NCBI RefSeq assembly: GCF_016757965.1
Contig: NZ_JAEKIW010000013.1
Location: 1 to 64,000, forward strand
From: Archaeoglobus neptunius
Lineage (GTDB): Archaea > Halobacteriota > Archaeoglobi > Archaeoglobales > Archaeoglobaceae
DNA length: 64,000 nt
Direction: 5' to 3'
In this document: positions 26,226-49,992 of the stretch, piece by piece
Numbering within the stretch: position 1 is the first letter of the stretch
Layout: every line of letters starts with the position of its first letter
Made by a program: the position numbers and the translations under genes
The notes under the pieces: generated by a model
Database searches by the model: none
What the model was told of the DNA's origin: nothing
What the model saw: only the letters and a program-made list of their open reading frames with translations

Positions 26226-26249
26226 CTCACCCCCCACGAGGTGGTGTCT
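26226..26249 (+). promoter_or_regulatory. C-rich/SD element before the ArdC-like gene
   Basis: caccccccacgaggtggtgt precedes ATG 26250. CACC/GGTG arms flank the SD. Confidence 0.55.
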
Positions 26250-27290
26250 ATGTCCGCCGATAGTGGAAACCGGTCAACCAAAAACTGTCAACTAACTGTT
26301 AACAGTAAACTAAAAACCAACAATGGTAAATCGAGGAGAGAGAAGGTCAGAAACGCGATAAACACAGTCCTCGACCTCATCGAGAGAGAGAAGCTGGAGT
26401 ACGTGGCCTTGGCGGTTTTCAGAGTGAACGGCAACAAGCCCTCGGACAACTGGAGTTTCTTCAACCGAATGCTCATGTTCGCCCACGGCACAACTGATGC
26501 AAGAGGATTCAGGCAGTGGCAGCAGGTTGGGAGGAGAGTGAAGAAGGGAGCGAAGGCGTTCCACATCCTCGTGCCAGTGTTCAAGAAGGTGCCAGTGAAG
26601 AGAAAGGAAGTGACGGAGAAAATAGAGGAGCTGAGGGAGGAGCACTGCAGGAAGAGGTGTGTCGTCGAGGGTTCAGAGGTACGAGGGCACTGCGGGCAGT
26701 GCTGGGTTGCAGATGAGATTCTAAAACTGAAAGAGGTAGAGGTATTTTACGTGGAGAAGCTCGTGAGATTCAAAGCGGCGCCGGTGTTCAGGAAGGAGGA
26801 CACGGAGGGCGAACCACTGGAAGAGGACAAACTGCAAGAACAACTGAAGATACCCTGCGAGTTTCATGAGATAGTGGAGGAGCTCGGGCTGAAAGTCAGG
26901 GCAACGCCATTCGACGGCAGGTACTACGGGTGGTATTCTCCACACCGCAAGGAGATTGTCCTCGCATCTCCAGACCTACTGGTGTTCCTGCACGAACTCG
27001 CTCACGCGGTGGACGACAAGCTGCACGAGCTGAATGGCAGTAAGGAAGAGAGGGAAGTGGTGGCGGAGCTGTCGGCAGCGGTGATAGCGTACCTGCTGGG
27101 ATACAAGGCGAACGTAAAGCACGTGAAGTACTACCTGCAGAACGTGAGTCCTCAGACGGTATACAGACTACTGAACAGGGTGGAGAGAGTGGTGGGATAC
27201 GTGGTGGAGAGGACGAGGAGAGACCATCACACGACAAACTTGAACGAGAGCGTGAGTGCCACCACACCGCCAGCCCGCGTGGTGGTGTGA
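26250..27290 (+). CDS. ArdC-like antirestriction protein with zinc metallopeptidase domain
   Basis: 346 residues from ATG 26250. After a Lys/Asn-rich start, residues about 50-120 follow the ArdC N-terminal ssDNA-binding domain (FNRMLMFAHG, GFRQWQQVGRRVKKGAKAFH). A Cys cluster (CRKRCVVEG...CGQCWV) is inserted near 135-155. The C-terminal part has a metallopeptidase motif FLHELAHAVDD near residue 246. ArdC proteins protect incoming plasmid DNA from restriction on conjugation. This fits a mobile element with a transfer ATPase. The tail (TTPPARVVV) overlaps the SD element of the next gene. Confidence 0.85.
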   Translation: MSADSGNRSTKNCQLTVNSKLKTNNGKSRREKVRNAINTVLDLIEREKLEYVALAVFRVNGNKPSDNWSFFNRMLMFAHGTTDARGFRQWQQVGRRVKKGAKAFHILVPVFKKVPVKRKEVTEKIEELREEHCRKRCVVEGSEVRGHCGQCWVADEILKLKEVEVFYVEKLVRFKAAPVFRKEDTEGEPLEEDKLQEQLKIPCEFHEIVEELGLKVRATPFDGRYYGWYSPHRKEIVLASPDLLVFLHELAHAVDDKLHELNGSKEEREVVAELSAAVIAYLLGYKANVKHVKYYLQNVSPQTVYRLLNRVERVVGYVVERTRRDHHTTNLNESVSATTPPARVVV

Positions 27291-39918: not shown

Positions 39919-40003
39919 CTGTATATACACTTAGACAGATGAGTGTACAAACAGGGAAGTCGACCACGTAACACACTTTTACTTTTCGAGTAGATTTCAA
40001 GTG
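39905..40003 (+). promoter_or_regulatory. Recombinase promoter with GTATAAAC/TTAGACAG motif
   Basis: gtataaacacctaact then gtatatacacttagacagatg resembles the 11721 and 45941 sites. A poor TATA (acttttactttt, 39975) precedes ATG 40004. Confidence 0.45.
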
Positions 40004-40900
40004 ATGCTCCCAGAACTCGATAACTGGTACCTCTACCTCAAACACCGCTCCCCCTCCACGGCGAGGACGTACCTTCGCGCACTGAACAGGTTCTGCAGCG
40101 AGTGTCGCGTAACTCCCAGAGAGCTGCTCACCATGGATGACAGCGATGTCGTGTCCCTCCTCACGGACTTCGTCAATAGAAACGGGGGTAAGGAAGGCAG
40201 CATCCGCCCCGTAGTTTTCGCCGTGAAGAACTGGTTGAAGTTCAACGGCAGGCCCGTTTACGCCAGGATCCGGACTCGCGATAACGAGACCACTCCAACG
40301 AGAGAGATTGTTAAAAAAGTACTCGCCGCCGCTCCCACCAGGACGAAAGTGATACTCTCCCTGATGGCATTTTCCGGACTCGCGATAACGTCAATCTGCA
40401 ATGTCGACGGTACAGATGGATTGAGGCTCGGCGACATCCCAGATCTCGACATAGAAAGAACGAGGTTCGAGAGGGTTCCGGCACAGATCGTCGTGAGAGA
40501 CGAGCTCAGCAAAAGAGGAGAGTACACAACATTCGCAAGTCGACAAACGTGCGGCTACATCCTGTCTTACCTCCGGATCAGAAAGAGCGACGGAGAAGCG
40601 CTAAACGAGAGTTCCCCCCTCGTAGTGAAGCGGAAAAGAAGGTTCGTCAATGCCGCATACGCCAGTAAGCTCGCGTCTGACGCCATAAGACTCGCAGGTT
40701 TCACCTTCCCCCCAAACGCCCTCCGCCACTACTTTGAGTCGCAGTTACTAAGAGCGGTGAGTTCGCGCCTCGTCCCGAGAGAGTACGGCTCATGTTGGAT
40801 GGGACACGAGAAGATGGATTTGTCCTTTGACGTCATCGAAGACATGAGGAGCAAGTTCGACTACATGGCCAGGCTGTACCTCGAAACCGCACAAAGTTGA
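40004..40900 (+). CDS. Tyrosine-recombinase homologue lacking catalytic residues
   Basis: 298 residues from ATG 40004 (GTG 40001 in frame). It aligns end to end with the recombinase at 44453: N-terminal SAM-like domain (LKHRSPSTARTYLRALNRFC versus LRSHSLTTAKVYSNALDRFC) and a C-terminal catalytic-type domain. The active-site Arg of box I (AYAGVRPEVIGN in the other) is replaced (AFSGLAITSICN). The segment with the nucleophilic Tyr (VYTTNKN) is absent; MGHEKMDLSFDVIEDM runs straight on. LRHYFES and MGH are kept. It probably still binds DNA and could act as accessory, decoy or regulator of the active paralogue. Confidence 0.8.
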   Translation: MLPELDNWYLYLKHRSPSTARTYLRALNRFCSECRVTPRELLTMDDSDVVSLLTDFVNRNGGKEGSIRPVVFAVKNWLKFNGRPVYARIRTRDNETTPTREIVKKVLAAAPTRTKVILSLMAFSGLAITSICNVDGTDGLRLGDIPDLDIERTRFERVPAQIVVRDELSKRGEYTTFASRQTCGYILSYLRIRKSDGEALNESSPLVVKRKRRFVNAAYASKLASDAIRLAGFTFPPNALRHYFESQLLRAVSSRLVPREYGSCWMGHEKMDLSFDVIEDMRSKFDYMARLYLETAQS

Positions 40901-41032: not shown

Positions 41033-41632
41033 GTGATCCTGAGCGGGTCGGAGGTGGGACTACTCTACGACTTTTTAGGAACGAACGACGCGCGTGCCCC
41101 CCTCTACGGCAGGTACTTCCACGAGATAAAGCTGAACAGGTTCAGCCACTCGGAGAGCGTGGCCTTTCTGACGAAAGGTTTCGAGCAAGTGAACATGGAG
41201 GTGCAGAGAGAGGTGATCGAGTACGCCGTGGAGAGGTTGGACGGGGTAGTCGGCTGGCTCGTGAACTTCGGCTGGAAGAGCGTGCAGACCGGAGAGGCGA
41301 CGACGAAGTCAGTCGACGAAGTACTGGAAGAGGCGGGGGAGCTCGCACTGGACGAGTTCAAGTCGTTCCTCGAAAAACACGCTCCCGCAGACCGGAGACT
41401 CGCCGAGGTCGCAAAGGCCATCGCGAGCGGAAAGAACAGGTGGTCGGACATAAAGAGAGCTCTGGAAAGGAGCGAGAGGAGAGAGATACCCGACATGTCC
41501 TTGTCGAGACTCCTCAACACCCTCCTCAAGGCCACCTACATCGAGAAAACAGTGGAGGGGAGAAACGTTCAGTACAGGATCGTGGATCCAGTACTGGAGC
41601 ACGCTCTCAGACGAGAAGACTTCCACGCGTAG
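41033..41632 (+). pseudogene. C-terminal fragment of an archaeal P-loop ATPase (PF01637-like)
   Basis: 199 residues starting at GTG 41033: ILSGSEVGLLYDFL, APLYGRYFHEIKL and RFSHSESVAFLTKGF are typical of the region after the Walker motifs in the archaeal ATPase family. The C-terminal part is a winged-helix/DUF234-like region. The N-terminal P-loop half is missing. Upstream, ATG 41007 with protein-like MYFDPRT stops at once in another frame. The intact operator and promoter sit directly before the fragment, so an internal deletion removed about the first half. Confidence 0.7.
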
Positions 41633-41793
41633 TCACGGAAGTCCGCCACCTCTTCAGACACACCTGACTCCGTCGTCCGCAATCTGGCTTTTCCTTGGAA
41701 CAGTTGAAGTGACTGAAACCACGAAAAATGGAAACGAAGAGAACCCACGTCGGGGAGGGACTTAATTTTTCGATTTTATATTACTACTTCTTT

Positions 41794-41823
41794 CTTTCAA
41801 TCCCAACTGGGAGGACTTGACGT
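41794..41823 (-). CRISPR. Solitary CRISPR-like repeat downstream of cas6
   Basis: Read on the minus strand, the segment ends with TCCCAGTTGGGATTGAAAG. It has a TCCC-AGTT-GGGA stem-loop followed by ATTGAAAG, the classic 8-nt 5' tag of archaeal type I/III crRNAs. It lies 20 nt after the cas6 stop and on the same strand, so it would be on the cas6 transcript. No second copy was found, so this is not an array. Confidence 0.5.
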
Positions 41824-41842
41824 CATTCCTTGACCTTCTCCC

Positions 41843-42586
41843 TTATAAACTTTTCCGACCGGCCCGGTCGACGACGCGCTTGACCATCCCGAAGCCCATG
41901 CTGTTGCGTCTGCCGAACCCCACCTGGTACCCCAGCCTGATCAGCTCCTCGTCCCCCTCCACCTCGAAGTACATCTCGACGCACCTGTGCATCGCGTTGC
42001 CGACCCTCTTCAGCTTCCTCTTGGGCTCCCTGAGCGGCGTTATCCTCTCCACGCACCCGTCGGGATCCCTACCGTACAGTGCCCTGTACTTGTTCTCGAG
42101 GTTCCTCGAGACCAGCTCCACGAACCCCTCGTCCTCCGGCGTCAGCCACACCTCCCTGCCCCCCGCGGTGTACGAGACGATCACGGGGCTGAGGGTGTAG
42201 AACCGCTCCCTCCTCCCGATCCTCTCCGGCTCACGCACCACGTACACCTGCAAAACCGGCAACCTCGCCCTTCCGACCACGACCTCCCCCGCCTCCAGAA
42301 CTCCCCTCACGAAGTTGACGAACACGTCCTCCCTGGCGGTGGAGAACTGCAGGTGCGCCATGTCGCCCAGCACCTCCATGCGGTCGCCCCTGACCCTGAA
42401 CCTCCTCCCCGGTATCATCAACTGACTGAAGGTGTACAGCTTGTACCTCCCGCTCCCGTGCAGTCTGGAGCTCCACTCCCCGTCGACCCTCTCGAAGGTG
42501 CGGTATATCCACGAGGCGAGCAGGTACTGGTGGTCCATCGGTATCACGGTCCCCGGAACCACGGAGAGCTCGACGTCGACCCTCAT
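41843..42586 (-). CDS. cas6: Orphan Cas6-like CRISPR RNA endonuclease
   Basis: 247 residues from ATG 42586 (SD ggtggtggtggg); the longer frame upstream is spurious. The family features are PMDHQYLLASWIYR with a candidate catalytic His near residue 19, a central FSTAREDVFVNFVRGVLE, a beta middle (LTPVI-like SPVIV) and the C-terminal Gly-rich loop GFGRRNSMGFGMV. Cas6 cuts CRISPR repeats to make crRNAs. No other cas gene and no array is in the window. A solitary repeat lies just downstream. It may process host crRNAs or act in CRISPR interference by the element. Confidence 0.85.
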   Translation of the reverse strand: MRVDVELSVVPGTVIPMDHQYLLASWIYRTFERVDGEWSSRLHGSGRYKLYTFSQLMIPGRRFRVRGDRMEVLGDMAHLQFSTAREDVFVNFVRGVLEAGEVVVGRARLPVLQVYVVREPERIGRRERFYTLSPVIVSYTAGGREVWLTPEDEGFVELVSRNLENKYRALYGRDPDGCVERITPLREPKRKLKRVGNAMHRCVEMYFEVEGDEELIRLGYQVGFGRRNSMGFGMVKRVVDRAGRKSL

Positions 42587-42600
42587 CCCACCACCACCGG

Positions 42601-42942
42601 TCACGGCAACTCCCTCAGCTCGTGAAACTCCTTCAGCAACCTCAGCTCCTCGTTGATCTCCCTGACGATCCTTTTGATGTTCTTTCTCTTCCTCTCGAGC
42701 CTGTGCCTCATCACCCTGACGTAGTCCTTCCAGTCGCCCCTCTTCGTCCATTTTTCTCTAAACTCTTCGAGAGACATCTCCCCCTTCCTGACTTTCTGAT
42801 AGTCGTCGTAAACTCCACTCTCGCCCTTCTTAGACCCCCACTTTGCGTAGAATTCGAGCAGCTCCATTTCACCATCTACCACCTTCAACCAGTCCTCGAT
42901 GAACTCCCTCTCCTTCATAGTAAGGATCCAACACTTTCTCAT
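42601..42942 (-). CDS. Hypothetical charged helical protein upstream of cas6 (113 aa)
   Basis: ATG 42942 lies 27 nt after a minus-strand TATA box (atttataaac, 42965-42974), so it is leaderless; ATG 42918 is an alternative. The protein is helical and very rich in Lys/Arg/Glu (RLERKRKNIKRIVREINEEL). It ends 14 nt before cas6, so the two are one operon. A small helical partner of an orphan cas6 could be an anti-CRISPR or a Cas6 co-factor; no homologue recognised. Confidence 0.6.
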   Translation of the reverse strand: MRKCWILTMKEREFIEDWLKVVDGEMELLEFYAKWGSKKGESGVYDDYQKVRKGEMSLEEFREKWTKRGDWKDYVRVMRHRLERKRKNIKRIVREINEELRLLKEFHELRELP

Positions 42943-43018
42943 TAGATAATGTATTTCAGGACAGTTTATAAATTACAACTATTTGTAATAGTGATTTTGA
43001 GTGAATTATAATTGAGTG

Positions 43019-43351
43019 CTATATGCTATGACGCCCGAGATTCTTATCATCCCATCCAGCCTTTTTCAACCCTTCCAAAATCTTTCTGTGAAGCACAGGT
43101 GTCAGCGTTTTATCGACAATGAACCTCACGACATCGTCAGGAGTGTAGTAGGCACCTTTCATTTTTTGTTCGTTCGTCCCGGTTCCCGAGATGAAGTTGA
43201 TGGTCTTCTCGAATATATATCCCAAAATATCTGGATTGATACTATCGCTATTACTACCGCTAAGTGTGAAGGTATACCTCTCGATAATGTTGTCTATAAC
43301 CAGAAAAAGACCGTCGTTCTCCACGTAATAACTCCTCTCATTTTTTAACAT
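43019..43351 (-). pseudogene. Fragment of an N6-adenine DNA methyltransferase
   Basis: 110 residues. DILGYIFEKTIN, then KGAYYTPDDVVRFIVDKTL, match the region just before the SAM-binding motif in type IIG/Eco57I-type and related methylases. The frame stops before the DPACGSG and NPPY motifs would appear. The start also lacks the usual N-terminal region. It is a remnant, more A/T-rich than its neighbours, and marks loss of a restriction-modification gene. Confidence 0.65.
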
Positions 43352-43444: not shown

Positions 43445-43867
43445 TCACACGAGCTCCACCCGTTTCTCGTACTTCGTGCCCTTCAACGTCTTACAGAGCT
43501 CTCTATCCAGCGTGATGAGTTTTGCCTCCAGTTCGACTGCGAGAGCAAGAAAGAGAGCGTCGTAGACCGTCACACCGCAACTGATTGCGAGGTCAAAGGC
43601 CGCACTCAGAACCTTTTTTGCGTCGACGACCTCGCAGACTCCATCAACGAAGTCGATAGCCTTTTCTAAAGCTCGTCTAACGAGAGCTGCATCTTCTCCG
43701 TAAATCCTAACCCTCTTCCACGCAGCGTTGGCAACCTCTGAATAAATCTGGCTAACGGTGTATCGCTCAGGAAATCTCATAACGACTTCCTCAGCCCTCT
43801 CGGACGCGTCCTCTCTAAAAAACAAGGCAACCACAACGCTTGAGTCGAGAACGGCTTTACCGTCCAT
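43445..43867 (-). CDS. vapC: VapC-type PIN-domain toxin
   Basis: 140 residues. The PIN acidic residues are D in AVLDSSVVVALFF, E in YSEVANAAWK, D in VYDALFLALA and D in LITLDREL. VapC toxins are RNases that cut tRNA or rRNA. The start overlaps the upstream antitoxin by 11 nt, as usual for vapBC. Such pairs stabilise mobile elements. Confidence 0.9.
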   Translation of the reverse strand: MDGKAVLDSSVVVALFFREDASERAEEVVMRFPERYTVSQIYSEVANAAWKRVRIYGEDAALVRRALEKAIDFVDGVCEVVDAKKVLSAAFDLAISCGVTVYDALFLALAVELEAKLITLDRELCKTLKGTKYEKRVELV

Positions 43868-44078
43868 CTCTATCCTCCCTGATCAGCTTCGCAGCAGAAA
43901 CGCTGCTTTTCATCCTGTTTCTCAACTCTCTCCCTTCCATAAGCAACTTCTTCGCATATTCATCCCGCACTCTCCTCTCAATGAATCGCCTTATTTCATC
44001 CTGCCAGTTGACGTCGACACCCTCCATCATCTTCTTGATCTCCTCGGGTATTCTCACACTATATACGACTTTCGTCAT
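43857..44078 (-). CDS. vapB: VapB-type antitoxin
   Basis: 73 residues from ATG 44078, 27 nt after a minus-strand TATA (tttatttacgg, 44099-44109). The N-terminus (VVYSVRIPEEIKKMMEG) is a ribbon-helix-helix/AbrB-like strand and helix, followed by a charged helix (RRFIERRVRDEYAKKLL) that would wrap VapC. It represses its own promoter in known systems. Confidence 0.8.
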   Translation of the reverse strand: MTKVVYSVRIPEEIKKMMEGVDVNWQDEIRRFIERRVRDEYAKKLLMEGRELRNRMKSSVSAAKLIREDRDGR

Positions 44079-44081
44079 CAA

Positions 44082-44452: not shown

Positions 44453-45499
44453 ATGGACCTTGAGAGGTGGGTGTTCTCCCTGAGGTCCCACAGTTTAACC
44501 ACGGCGAAGGTGTACTCCAACGCCCTCGACAGGTTCTGCGAGTTCGCGTCGATCACTCCCCGGGAGGTGGTCGAGGATGTCGAGAGGACGGAGAGGGCGC
44601 TCGTGGAGTTCGTGAAGCGACACCCTGCCAGCAGTGCGAGAGCAGTATACTACGCGGTGAGGAGCTGGCTGAGGTTCAACGGGGTCGAGATGAAACTGAA
44701 ACTGAGGTTCGACGTCGAGAGCAGGGTGGCTAGGGAGGAGGCGGTTCCCAAGCCGGAGGACGTGAAGAAGCTCATCGACTACGCCCCGCTCAAGACGAAA
44801 GTGGTGATAGCGCTGATGGCCTACGCGGGCGTGAGGCCGGAGGTCATAGGCAACCACGACGGCAGCAACGGTTTGAGGGTGGAGGACCTGCCGGAACTGT
44901 CTCTCTATCCCGACCCGAAGTTCCTCGTCACACCCGCGAGGGTGGTGGTGAGGCCGTCGCTGAGCAAGGCGAGGCACCAGTACTTCACGTTCCTCAACGA
45001 CCGCGCGTGCGAGGTGGTGGAGAGGTACCTGAAGAAGAGGGGAAACGTCGAACCTGCAGAACCACTCGTGGAGGGTAAGAACGGCGAATTTCTGAAGACG
45101 GGGTCTATAAGCACGGCCGTCAGGAGGGTGATACGGCTCTGCGGGTTCGAGTTCAGGCCCTACGCCCTGCGACACTTCTTCGACACGTACATGCTCATGG
45201 CGGAGGGTGCGAGGATAATCCCGAGGGACTACAGGGTGTTCTGGATGGGTCACAGGGGGGACATCGAAGCAGTCTACACGACCAACAAGAACAAACTTCC
45301 CCCCGAGCTTGTGGAGGACATGAGGAGTAAGTACGAGAGGGCCAGCGAACTGCTCCTGCAGGAAAGGGGGAGGGAAAGGGAGGAGGCAGAACCAACGCAG
45401 AAGGTCGTGAGCTGCGAGGAAGTGGACGGGTACCTCGAGAGAGGCTGGGTCTACGTCACGACGCTGCCGAACGGGAAGGTCATCGTGAAGCGACCCTGA
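44453..45499 (+). CDS. Tyrosine recombinase/integrase, probably active
   Basis: 348 residues. N-terminal SAM-like domain about 1-90 (LTTAKVYSNALDRFCEF). Catalytic residues: Arg in LMAYAGVRPEVIGN, Lys in RPSLSKARHQYFTF, Arg in YALRHFFDTYM (the first box-II His is Tyr here), His in FWMGHRGD and Tyr in EAVYTTNKNKL. This layout resembles archaeal XerA/SSV-type integrases. It is leaderless (TATA at 44421). The ~45-residue C-terminal extension is acidic with a beta end. It probably integrates the element or resolves multimers. Paralogue: the inactive protein at 40004. Confidence 0.88.
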   Translation: MDLERWVFSLRSHSLTTAKVYSNALDRFCEFASITPREVVEDVERTERALVEFVKRHPASSARAVYYAVRSWLRFNGVEMKLKLRFDVESRVAREEAVPKPEDVKKLIDYAPLKTKVVIALMAYAGVRPEVIGNHDGSNGLRVEDLPELSLYPDPKFLVTPARVVVRPSLSKARHQYFTFLNDRACEVVERYLKKRGNVEPAEPLVEGKNGEFLKTGSISTAVRRVIRLCGFEFRPYALRHFFDTYMLMAEGARIIPRDYRVFWMGHRGDIEAVYTTNKNKLPPELVEDMRSKYERASELLLQERGREREEAEPTQKVVSCEEVDGYLERGWVYVTTLPNGKVIVKRP

Positions 45500-45940: not shown

Positions 45941-46011
45941 GTGTATAAACACATAAACGCTTAAACACCAAGACGTTTAGACAGACACACACCCCTCATT
46001 TCCAGTCGAGA
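45941..46011. repeat. 71-bp perfect direct repeat, copy A
   Basis: Starts GTGTATAAACACATAAACGC, contains GACGTTTAGACAGACACAC and ends with the box CCCCTCATTTCCAGTCGAGA. Identical to 46707-46777. The two copies flank the gene at 46107-46634. Confidence 0.9.
45989..46010 (-). repeat. ORB-like origin box 1
   Basis: On the minus strand CTCGACTGGAAATGAGGGGT, close to the archaeal ORB consensus (TCCA.TGGAAAC.AAGGGGT). Orc1/Cdc6 binds such boxes. Confidence 0.65.
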
Positions 46012-46106
46012 CCCGGGAGAGCGTGCACCCTCACAAACGACACAGAGACACCACGAATCCTCATGTAAGGCGTGCCGACTGTAAATAACGAGAGCGAAAA
46101 CACACG

Positions 46107-46706: not shown

Positions 46707-46777
46707 GTGTATAAACACATAAACGCTTAAACACCAAGACGTTTAGACAGACACACACCCCTCATTTCCAGTCGAGA
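46707..46777. repeat. 71-bp perfect direct repeat, copy B
   Basis: Identical to 45941-46011. Its last 22 bases (46755-46776) form ORB-like box 3. Confidence 0.9.
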
Positions 46778-46881
46778 ACGGTGCGAGGACGGGAGGAGTG
46801 CATTCGACAAGAAATGAGGGGTTGCAGTGGAAATGTAGGAAATGAGGTTAGACTTATATACGACCGCAATAAATATCGACT

Positions 46882-48430: not shown

Positions 48431-48547
48431 TGTTCGGAATGTTTACATAGGAATTGATAAGATTTTTTCTTCTCTGAACCTTCCTTATTTTGTAAATTGA
48501 AAAAAGGTAGCAAATAGCACACTTCCAAGATACATATCTTTCAGTTT
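48431..48547. other. A/T-rich stretch, possible unwinding element
   Basis: gataagattttttcttctc and ccttattttgtaaattgaaa make this the most A/T-rich stretch in the 46-50 kb locus; it lies beside an ORB-like box (48548). It also holds the promoter of the 99-aa gene. Confidence 0.4.
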
Positions 48548-48570
48548 CTCGACTGGAAATGAGGGGTGTG
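48548..48570 (+). repeat. ORB-like origin box 4
   Basis: CTCGACTGGAAATGAGGGGT plus GTG, followed by TCTCCCCCA; the G and C runs can pair. A GTGTGTCTAAATG motif follows at 48585. Nearly the same ~38 bp occur at 49913. Confidence 0.7.
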
Positions 48571-48714
48571 TCTCCCCCACCGAATGTGTGTCTAAATGTA
48601 TGTATGTATAAGCATTCTTACAATTAAGCGTACATACACTAAGAGTAAACAGCCCCGCTTAAAGTGTCAAATCACAAAAATTGAGAGTTTACAACAGATC
48701 GCTACGCCAAGGGA

Positions 48715-49872: not shown

Positions 49873-49912
49873 TTTAAATATAAATACTTATAGCTTCATA
49901 CCCGTCCCGGGT

Positions 49913-49935
49913 CTCGACTGGAAATGAGGGGTGTG
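49913..49935 (+). repeat. ORB-like origin box 5
   Basis: CTCGACTGGAAATGAGGGGT plus GTG, then TGTCCCCCAACGA. It matches box 4 including the trailing C run. Confidence 0.7.
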
Positions 49936-49992
49936 TGTCCCCCAACGAGGAGACAGCAACAAAGGATATTAATAATTCAGCGGACTAAACCC

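Follow-up and report, generated by a model that had tools for sequence, protein, structure and literature searches.

RNA anti-CRISPRs (Racr) derive from solitary repeat units (SRUs) of phages and plasmids (PMC10651486). The published SRUs are near-identical to known repeats (at least 90%, SRUFinder), show no cas association, and use the host Cas6; RacrIF1 owes its activity to RNA upstream of the cut, the handle being dispensable (PMC10651486). Across the literature compared, solitary-repeat anti-CRISPRs depend on host Cas proteins and a copied host repeat. In S. solfataricus, the RNA ncRNA60 contains a single repeat-like motif close to cas6-3/sso1422 and is cut by that Cas6; the cut yields a crRNA-like handle, and the product is abundant in the CSM complex, its function being unknown in the source (PMC4041471).

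The analyzed stretch of 64,000 nucleotides (the window) comprises positions 1-64,000 of contig NZ_JAEKIW010000013.1, from an Archaeoglobi genome of 2.1 Mb in 32 contigs. The whole contig has 73,125 bp, and both ends are identical over 127 bp; therefore, it is a circular molecule of ~72,998 bp. This plasmid encodes a Cdc6/Orc1-type initiator, and ParA-, VirB4-, VirD4-, and primase-like genes were assigned by reading only; the VirB4-like gene has a counterpart in genome G010 at 61-63% identity. We call the 73-kb molecule, putatively, a conjugative-type plasmid. Long near-identical repeats with the core TCTCGACTGGAAATGAGGGGTGTGT, in both orientations (45941-46021, 46707-46787, 48547-48583, and 49912-49948), surround the Cdc6 and ParA genes and are likely origin-recognition boxes or partition sites. 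A predicted surface protein of 1638 aa (60911-65827, plus strand), with many repeated CARDB-like domains by reading, is possibly an adhesin of the transfer apparatus. The segment of interest contains the following features:

42966..42972, minus strand: TATA box TTTATAA upstream of the 113-aa gene; predicted operon promoter
42601..42942, minus strand: gene for a 113-aa charged helical protein, the first of a two-gene operon, 14 nt upstream of cas6
41843..42586, minus strand: cas6, 247 aa, intact; catalytic residues Y28, H43, K49
41843..41855, minus strand: BRE/TATA-like element, GGAAAAG then TTTATAA, overlapping the cas6 stop codon
41794..41823, minus strand: solitary CRISPR-like repeat, 30 nt, ACGTCAAGTCCTCCCAGTTGGGATTGAAAG, 19 nt past the cas6 stop codon
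41729..41793, minus strand: pseudo-spacer or tail, 64 nt, beginning AAAGAAGTAGTAATATAAAATCG, which follows the handle and runs up to ATTTTT

Like the Racr loci, the cassette has a single intergenic CRISPR-like repeat on a mobile element, without another repeat within about 100 bp. A promoter-like element (the predicted BRE/TATA, 23 nt before the repeat) immediately precedes it, and the host has CRISPR systems with the same handle. Unlike them, the repeat matches the host repeat at 17/30 positions and stays below 90% identity to the host and ten class repeats compared, and the element supplies Cas6, the gene of which ends 19 nt upstream. As both near-identity and freedom from cas association are lacking, the cassette was not classed as a Racr, although it may work like one. 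The likeness to ncRNA60 concerns architecture only, a repeat-like motif next to cas6 with a crRNA-like handle. However, ncRNA60 is chromosomal in a full CRISPR host, with a slightly different handle and no stem, whereas our repeat is plasmid-borne, with an exact handle and a stem. The best explanation, put forward with a little less than even confidence, is a plasmid-borne, self-sufficient decoy cassette directed against the host CRISPR.

The sequence-only reading had described a full orphan cas6 on a mobile element, and this was borne out, as the gene is intact, lies on a circular plasmid, and is the only cas gene recognized there. The profile search gave 125.6 bits against TIGR01877 (cut-off 58.65), and PF01881 and PF21350, the Pfam Cas6 N- and C-terminal domains, were above their cut-offs. 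The catalytic role of the Tyr, His, and Lys residues of Cas6 is established. Y28, H43, and K49 align with Y31, H46, and K52 of P. furiosus Cas6 (3i4h/3pkm; phmmer alignment, also made to 5yi6) and are invariant in the alignment of the plasmid protein with its chromosomal relatives; the glycine-loop residues are preserved along with them. With the AlphaFold2 model (pLDDT 90.3), archaeal Cas6 structures ranked first in Foldseek (5yi6, E 4.6e-24; 3ufc, TM 0.87). The predicted fold of the protein is that of archaeal Cas6, and its predicted active site is intact.

The plasmid Cas6 shares 42-44% identity with each of the two Cas6 proteins encoded on the host chromosome. The nearest relative found anywhere is chromosomal and at most 50% identical, and no close relative was retrieved from genome contigs, IMG/VR, plasmids, or phages. 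In a tree of 46 class Cas6 sequences, it branched basal to one chromosomal clade with modest support and on a long branch. On the viral contig IMGVR_UViG_3300006483_000012, a cas6 relative (31%) lies downstream of Csc2- and Csc1-like genes; by reading, the virus would have a partial set of the type I-D kind, and the contig showed no repeat. A very divergent enzyme with an intact active site could also matter by itself, competing for or mis-processing host pre-crRNA or supplying Cas6-less strains, with the repeat incidental. We consider this very improbable, since it leaves unexplained an adjoining cognate-looking repeat with its own promoter-like element.

The repeat ends in TGGG followed by ATTGAAAG, the 8-nt handle, and Cas6 is predicted to cut between 41802 and 41801, which would leave that handle. 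RNA folding gave a 4-bp stem (U-A plus three C-G) just before ATTGAAAG, at the expected cut site; the placement is comparable to that in Sulfolobus repeats, which have a 3-bp stem and an 8-nt handle. The hairpin reported earlier is confirmed in its placement, but the stem is not more stable than in shuffled sequence (z -0.9), and a 100-nt fold was likewise no better than shuffles. The evidence for the repeat therefore lies in its position and sequence rather than in stability. Rfam gave no match.

The host has two arrays, of 45 and about 87 repeats, with the repeat GTTGAAATCAGACCAARGTGGGATTGAAAG in small variants. Its chromosome encodes cas1, cas6 (two Cas6 proteins), and other cas genes, the latter assigned by reading and pairwise similarity and not by profiles. 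The solitary repeat and the host array repeats share the 12-mer TGGGATTGAAAG at their 3' ends. The handle within it is the same in nearly all Archaeoglobi repeats examined, and the earlier description of a solitary 30-nt repeat with a standard 8-nt handle behind cas6 agrees with this result.

That the 12-nt identity is accidental appears scarcely credible. Comparable strings are indeed present within ribosomal and other genes across the class: the repeat-like matches with two mismatches outside arrays lie mostly within genes, such as a ribosomal-protein-like 'DGPVGIER' stretch, and one (G054) lies outside any listed ORF. However, none of these matches across the class adjoins cas6, whereas the plasmid repeat neighbors cas6, shares its strand, and has both the stem and the TATA box in register. 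Additionally, the 12-mer arose in only 3/20,000 randomized versions (first-order Markov) of the 213-nt intergenic stretch. Elsewhere in the window, the first-strand 11-mer CTTTCAATCCC is absent, even with one mismatch allowed. The exact 18-mer search of 85,000 species genomes returned five single matches in unrelated bacteria, and the 18-mer is absent from IMG/VR.

The similarity to the host arrays proposed for comparison is thus partial: the last 12 nt are identical, but the 5' 18 nt match at only 5/18 positions, which argues that the repeat was not copied from the host repeat. Ten chromosomal repeat variants of the class differ among themselves by 0-2 in the last 12 nt, and their first 18 nt agree with one another at a mean of 14.6/18 positions (minimum 12). 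Against these ten, the solitary repeat matches at 10-12 of the last 12 nt and at only 3-6 of the first 18 nt. In related systems, the handle contacts the effector, whereas the 5' part of the repeat contacts Cas6. By alignment, the solitary repeat deviates where Cas6 would bind and not in the handle. It is probably a divergent repeat paired with the plasmid's own Cas6.

The repeat had been placed on its own transcript, and a predicted promoter is consistent with this placement: the TATA centre precedes the repeat by 23 nt. Over the 73 kb, this strand has just two copies of TTTATAA, one at the cas6 stop codon and the other upstream of the operon. Transcription start sites can be predicted from the typical archaeal TATA-to-start spacing, and with the TATA centre at this distance, the small RNA is predicted to start at the repeat or 2-4 nt inside it. 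The T-run ATTTTT, 64 nt past the repeat, is a possible terminator. On the opposite strand, TTTATAT at 41775-41781 (plus strand) is directed into the repeat, and an antisense transcription start within the repeat is possible.

The position of the repeat, on the cas6 strand and 19 nt past its stop codon, would also suit autoregulation, in which Cas6 sets its own level by cutting the repeat, or staying bound to it, in the 3' UTR of the cas6 mRNA, the small RNA being a by-product. A separate TATA box for the repeat would then be needless, and we judge this account rather unlikely. Among 59 class genomes, the other close cas6 genes are chromosomal, most with further cas genes nearby, and the chromosomal cas6 genes examined have no adjoining solitary GG-ATTGAAAG tag. 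The exception is genome G047, where the related plasmid contig C13 (6.7 kb) carries at 1004-1703 an orphan, very divergent cas6, followed directly by an ArdC-like gene. Immediately before its start codon stands GGGGGATTGAAAG, and cutting there would remove the ribosome-binding site, a point in favor of autoregulation; however, the motif may be just the ribosome-binding site. It could be either that or a second case of an orphan cas6 with a repeat tail. In common with the plasmid, contig C13 has the ArdC-like gene (57% identity); it also has a gene related to that for the 113-aa protein. The plasmid's own ArdC-N antirestriction-like gene lies at 26241-27290 (plus strand), with PF08401 barely over the cut-off.

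The sequence after the handle bears on whether the cassette holds a guide. The correct handle followed by arbitrary sequence of spacer length would fit a one-spacer guide or regulator, a mini-array or a CreA- or CreR-like RNA, that directs host complexes to a promoter or a different mobile element; CreTA-type ectopic repeats are likewise degenerate (PMC9458426). However, no target beyond chance was found in the host genome or on the plasmid, there were no seed matches near the host cas loci or the cas6 cassette, and the first 20 nt have no exact match in IMG/VR. Mini-array repeats also normally equal those of the host. The apparent second degenerate repeat, AAGTCCCTCCC...GTGGG about 40 nt downstream, scored no better than 163/2,246 random windows and was rejected as not significant. 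As a result, we regard a one-spacer guide as improbable, and the mini-array suggested by the sequence-only reading was not supported.

Viral CRISPR mini-arrays (PMC11656645) resemble the cassette as minimal CRISPR components on mobile elements. Unlike them, the cassette has one repeat, which differs from the host repeat, with neither a second nor a partial repeat to enclose a spacer, and no targeted relative was found; the putative spacer had no match to a mobile element in IMG/VR (exact match of its first 20 nt), the own genome, or the plasmid. As in CreTA/CreR (PMC9458426), a degenerate ectopic repeat is predicted here to give a crRNA-like RNA for the host effector. Unlike in CreTA/CreR, no toxin gene was identified, a second pseudo-repeat is absent, and no nearby promoter shows a seed match.

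The small charged gene said to precede cas6 is indeed present, at 42942..42601. Homologues of the 113-aa protein at 48-60% identity occur in 7 other genomes and stand away from cas6, save on G047 contig C13, where the two are 3.4 kb apart. A role as cas or acr gene was considered and rejected, as the family occurs without cas6 and the protein has no PDB fold match. Archaeoglobi mobile elements carry this gene on its own, with no link to cas6.

The cassette lies in a region of broken genes. On one side, a truncated ATPase (41033-41632, plus strand) matches the MCM C-terminal wHTH domain as well as positions 143-316 of a PADLOC candidate model with 474 residues, and on the other side, there is an N6 DNA methylase fragment (43019-43351, minus strand). 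A VapBC-type toxin-antitoxin pair (43445-44081, minus strand) adjoins the cassette. Two tyrosine recombinases of one family (40001-40900 and 44453-45499, both plus strand) bracket the cas6 segment, and both show about 40-44% identity to one integrase on G010 contig C12.

Gene fragments on both sides make decay possible, and the cassette could be a remnant without present function, a cas6 and one repeat left from a former plasmid CRISPR-Cas locus. Plasmid orphan cas genes and arrays are often viewed as possible remnants (PMC9071438), and the Cas6 branch in the tree is long. The cassette resembles these plasmid orphan cas loci in having a cas gene without an array on a plasmid; however, those are largely type IV-B operons, whereas here cas6 alone stands with a single repeat. 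Against decay, cas6 is open across 247 codons with catalytic and glycine-loop residues retained, the cassette has a promoter-like element, and the GC3 of cas6 (0.92) is the highest among the plasmid genes compared. Furthermore, neither degenerate repeats nor remains of further cas genes were recognizable on the plasmid. A full array beyond the window, which would have spoken against the earlier interpretation, is excluded for the whole plasmid: the scan of the complete circle found no array and no second repeat copy. We consider a remnant unlikely, though it deserves some weight.

We return to the decoy cassette, for which we infer transcription, cleavage, loading, and inhibition in the following manner. 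The promoter at the cas6 end, plus read-through from the operon, would give a short RNA beginning with the divergent repeat. The plasmid's own Cas6 would cut this RNA at the base of the small stem, and the product would consist of ATTGAAAG and a non-targeting stretch of about 64 nt. The 8-nt handle is recognized by effector complexes of types I and III. As nearly all Archaeoglobi repeats share this handle, the product would occupy host complexes and load them with a guide of no use. In its Cas6-binding half, the repeat does not resemble the host repeats, and therefore the plasmid would bring a matching enzyme, independent of the recipient Cas6.

Several observations support the decoy cassette: the Cas6 active site is intact and the fold is predicted; the handle and the 3' side of the stem are identical to both host arrays; the repeat departs from the class repeats in its first 18 nt and not in its last 12; the TATA box, one of two on the strand, lies at the right distance; the host has two long arrays and chromosomal cas genes; and the sequence after the handle is without target. 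Precedents exist in the Racr RNAs (PMC10651486) and in ncRNA60 (PMC4041471).

Several points count against it, besides the broken genes nearby. The activity of RacrIF1 resides upstream of its cut, but the start predicted here leaves little RNA there; the handle-bearing downstream product is the likelier active agent in the plasmid cassette. The 399 Archaeoglobi spacers (host and class) match the plasmid no more than the control and so give no sign of CRISPR pressure on it. Finally, the cassette was found only once, and the related element in G010 is without cas6. Among the uses first proposed for the locus, a decoy crRNA fits best, whereas the use of host spacers gained no support.

More tentatively still, the cassette may represent a new form of RNA anti-CRISPR, a conjugative-type plasmid whose orthogonal pair of Cas6 and repeat yields handle-bearing decoy guides wherever the effector complexes of the recipient use ATTGAAAG, whatever Cas6 that recipient has. 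If so, an element that keeps just the handle recognized by the host would split the two halves of the repeat, one for Cas6 binding and the other for effector binding. This would explain how one decoy could work across hosts. It would also be a simple two-part system and would offer one reason why mobile elements carry orphan cas6 genes.
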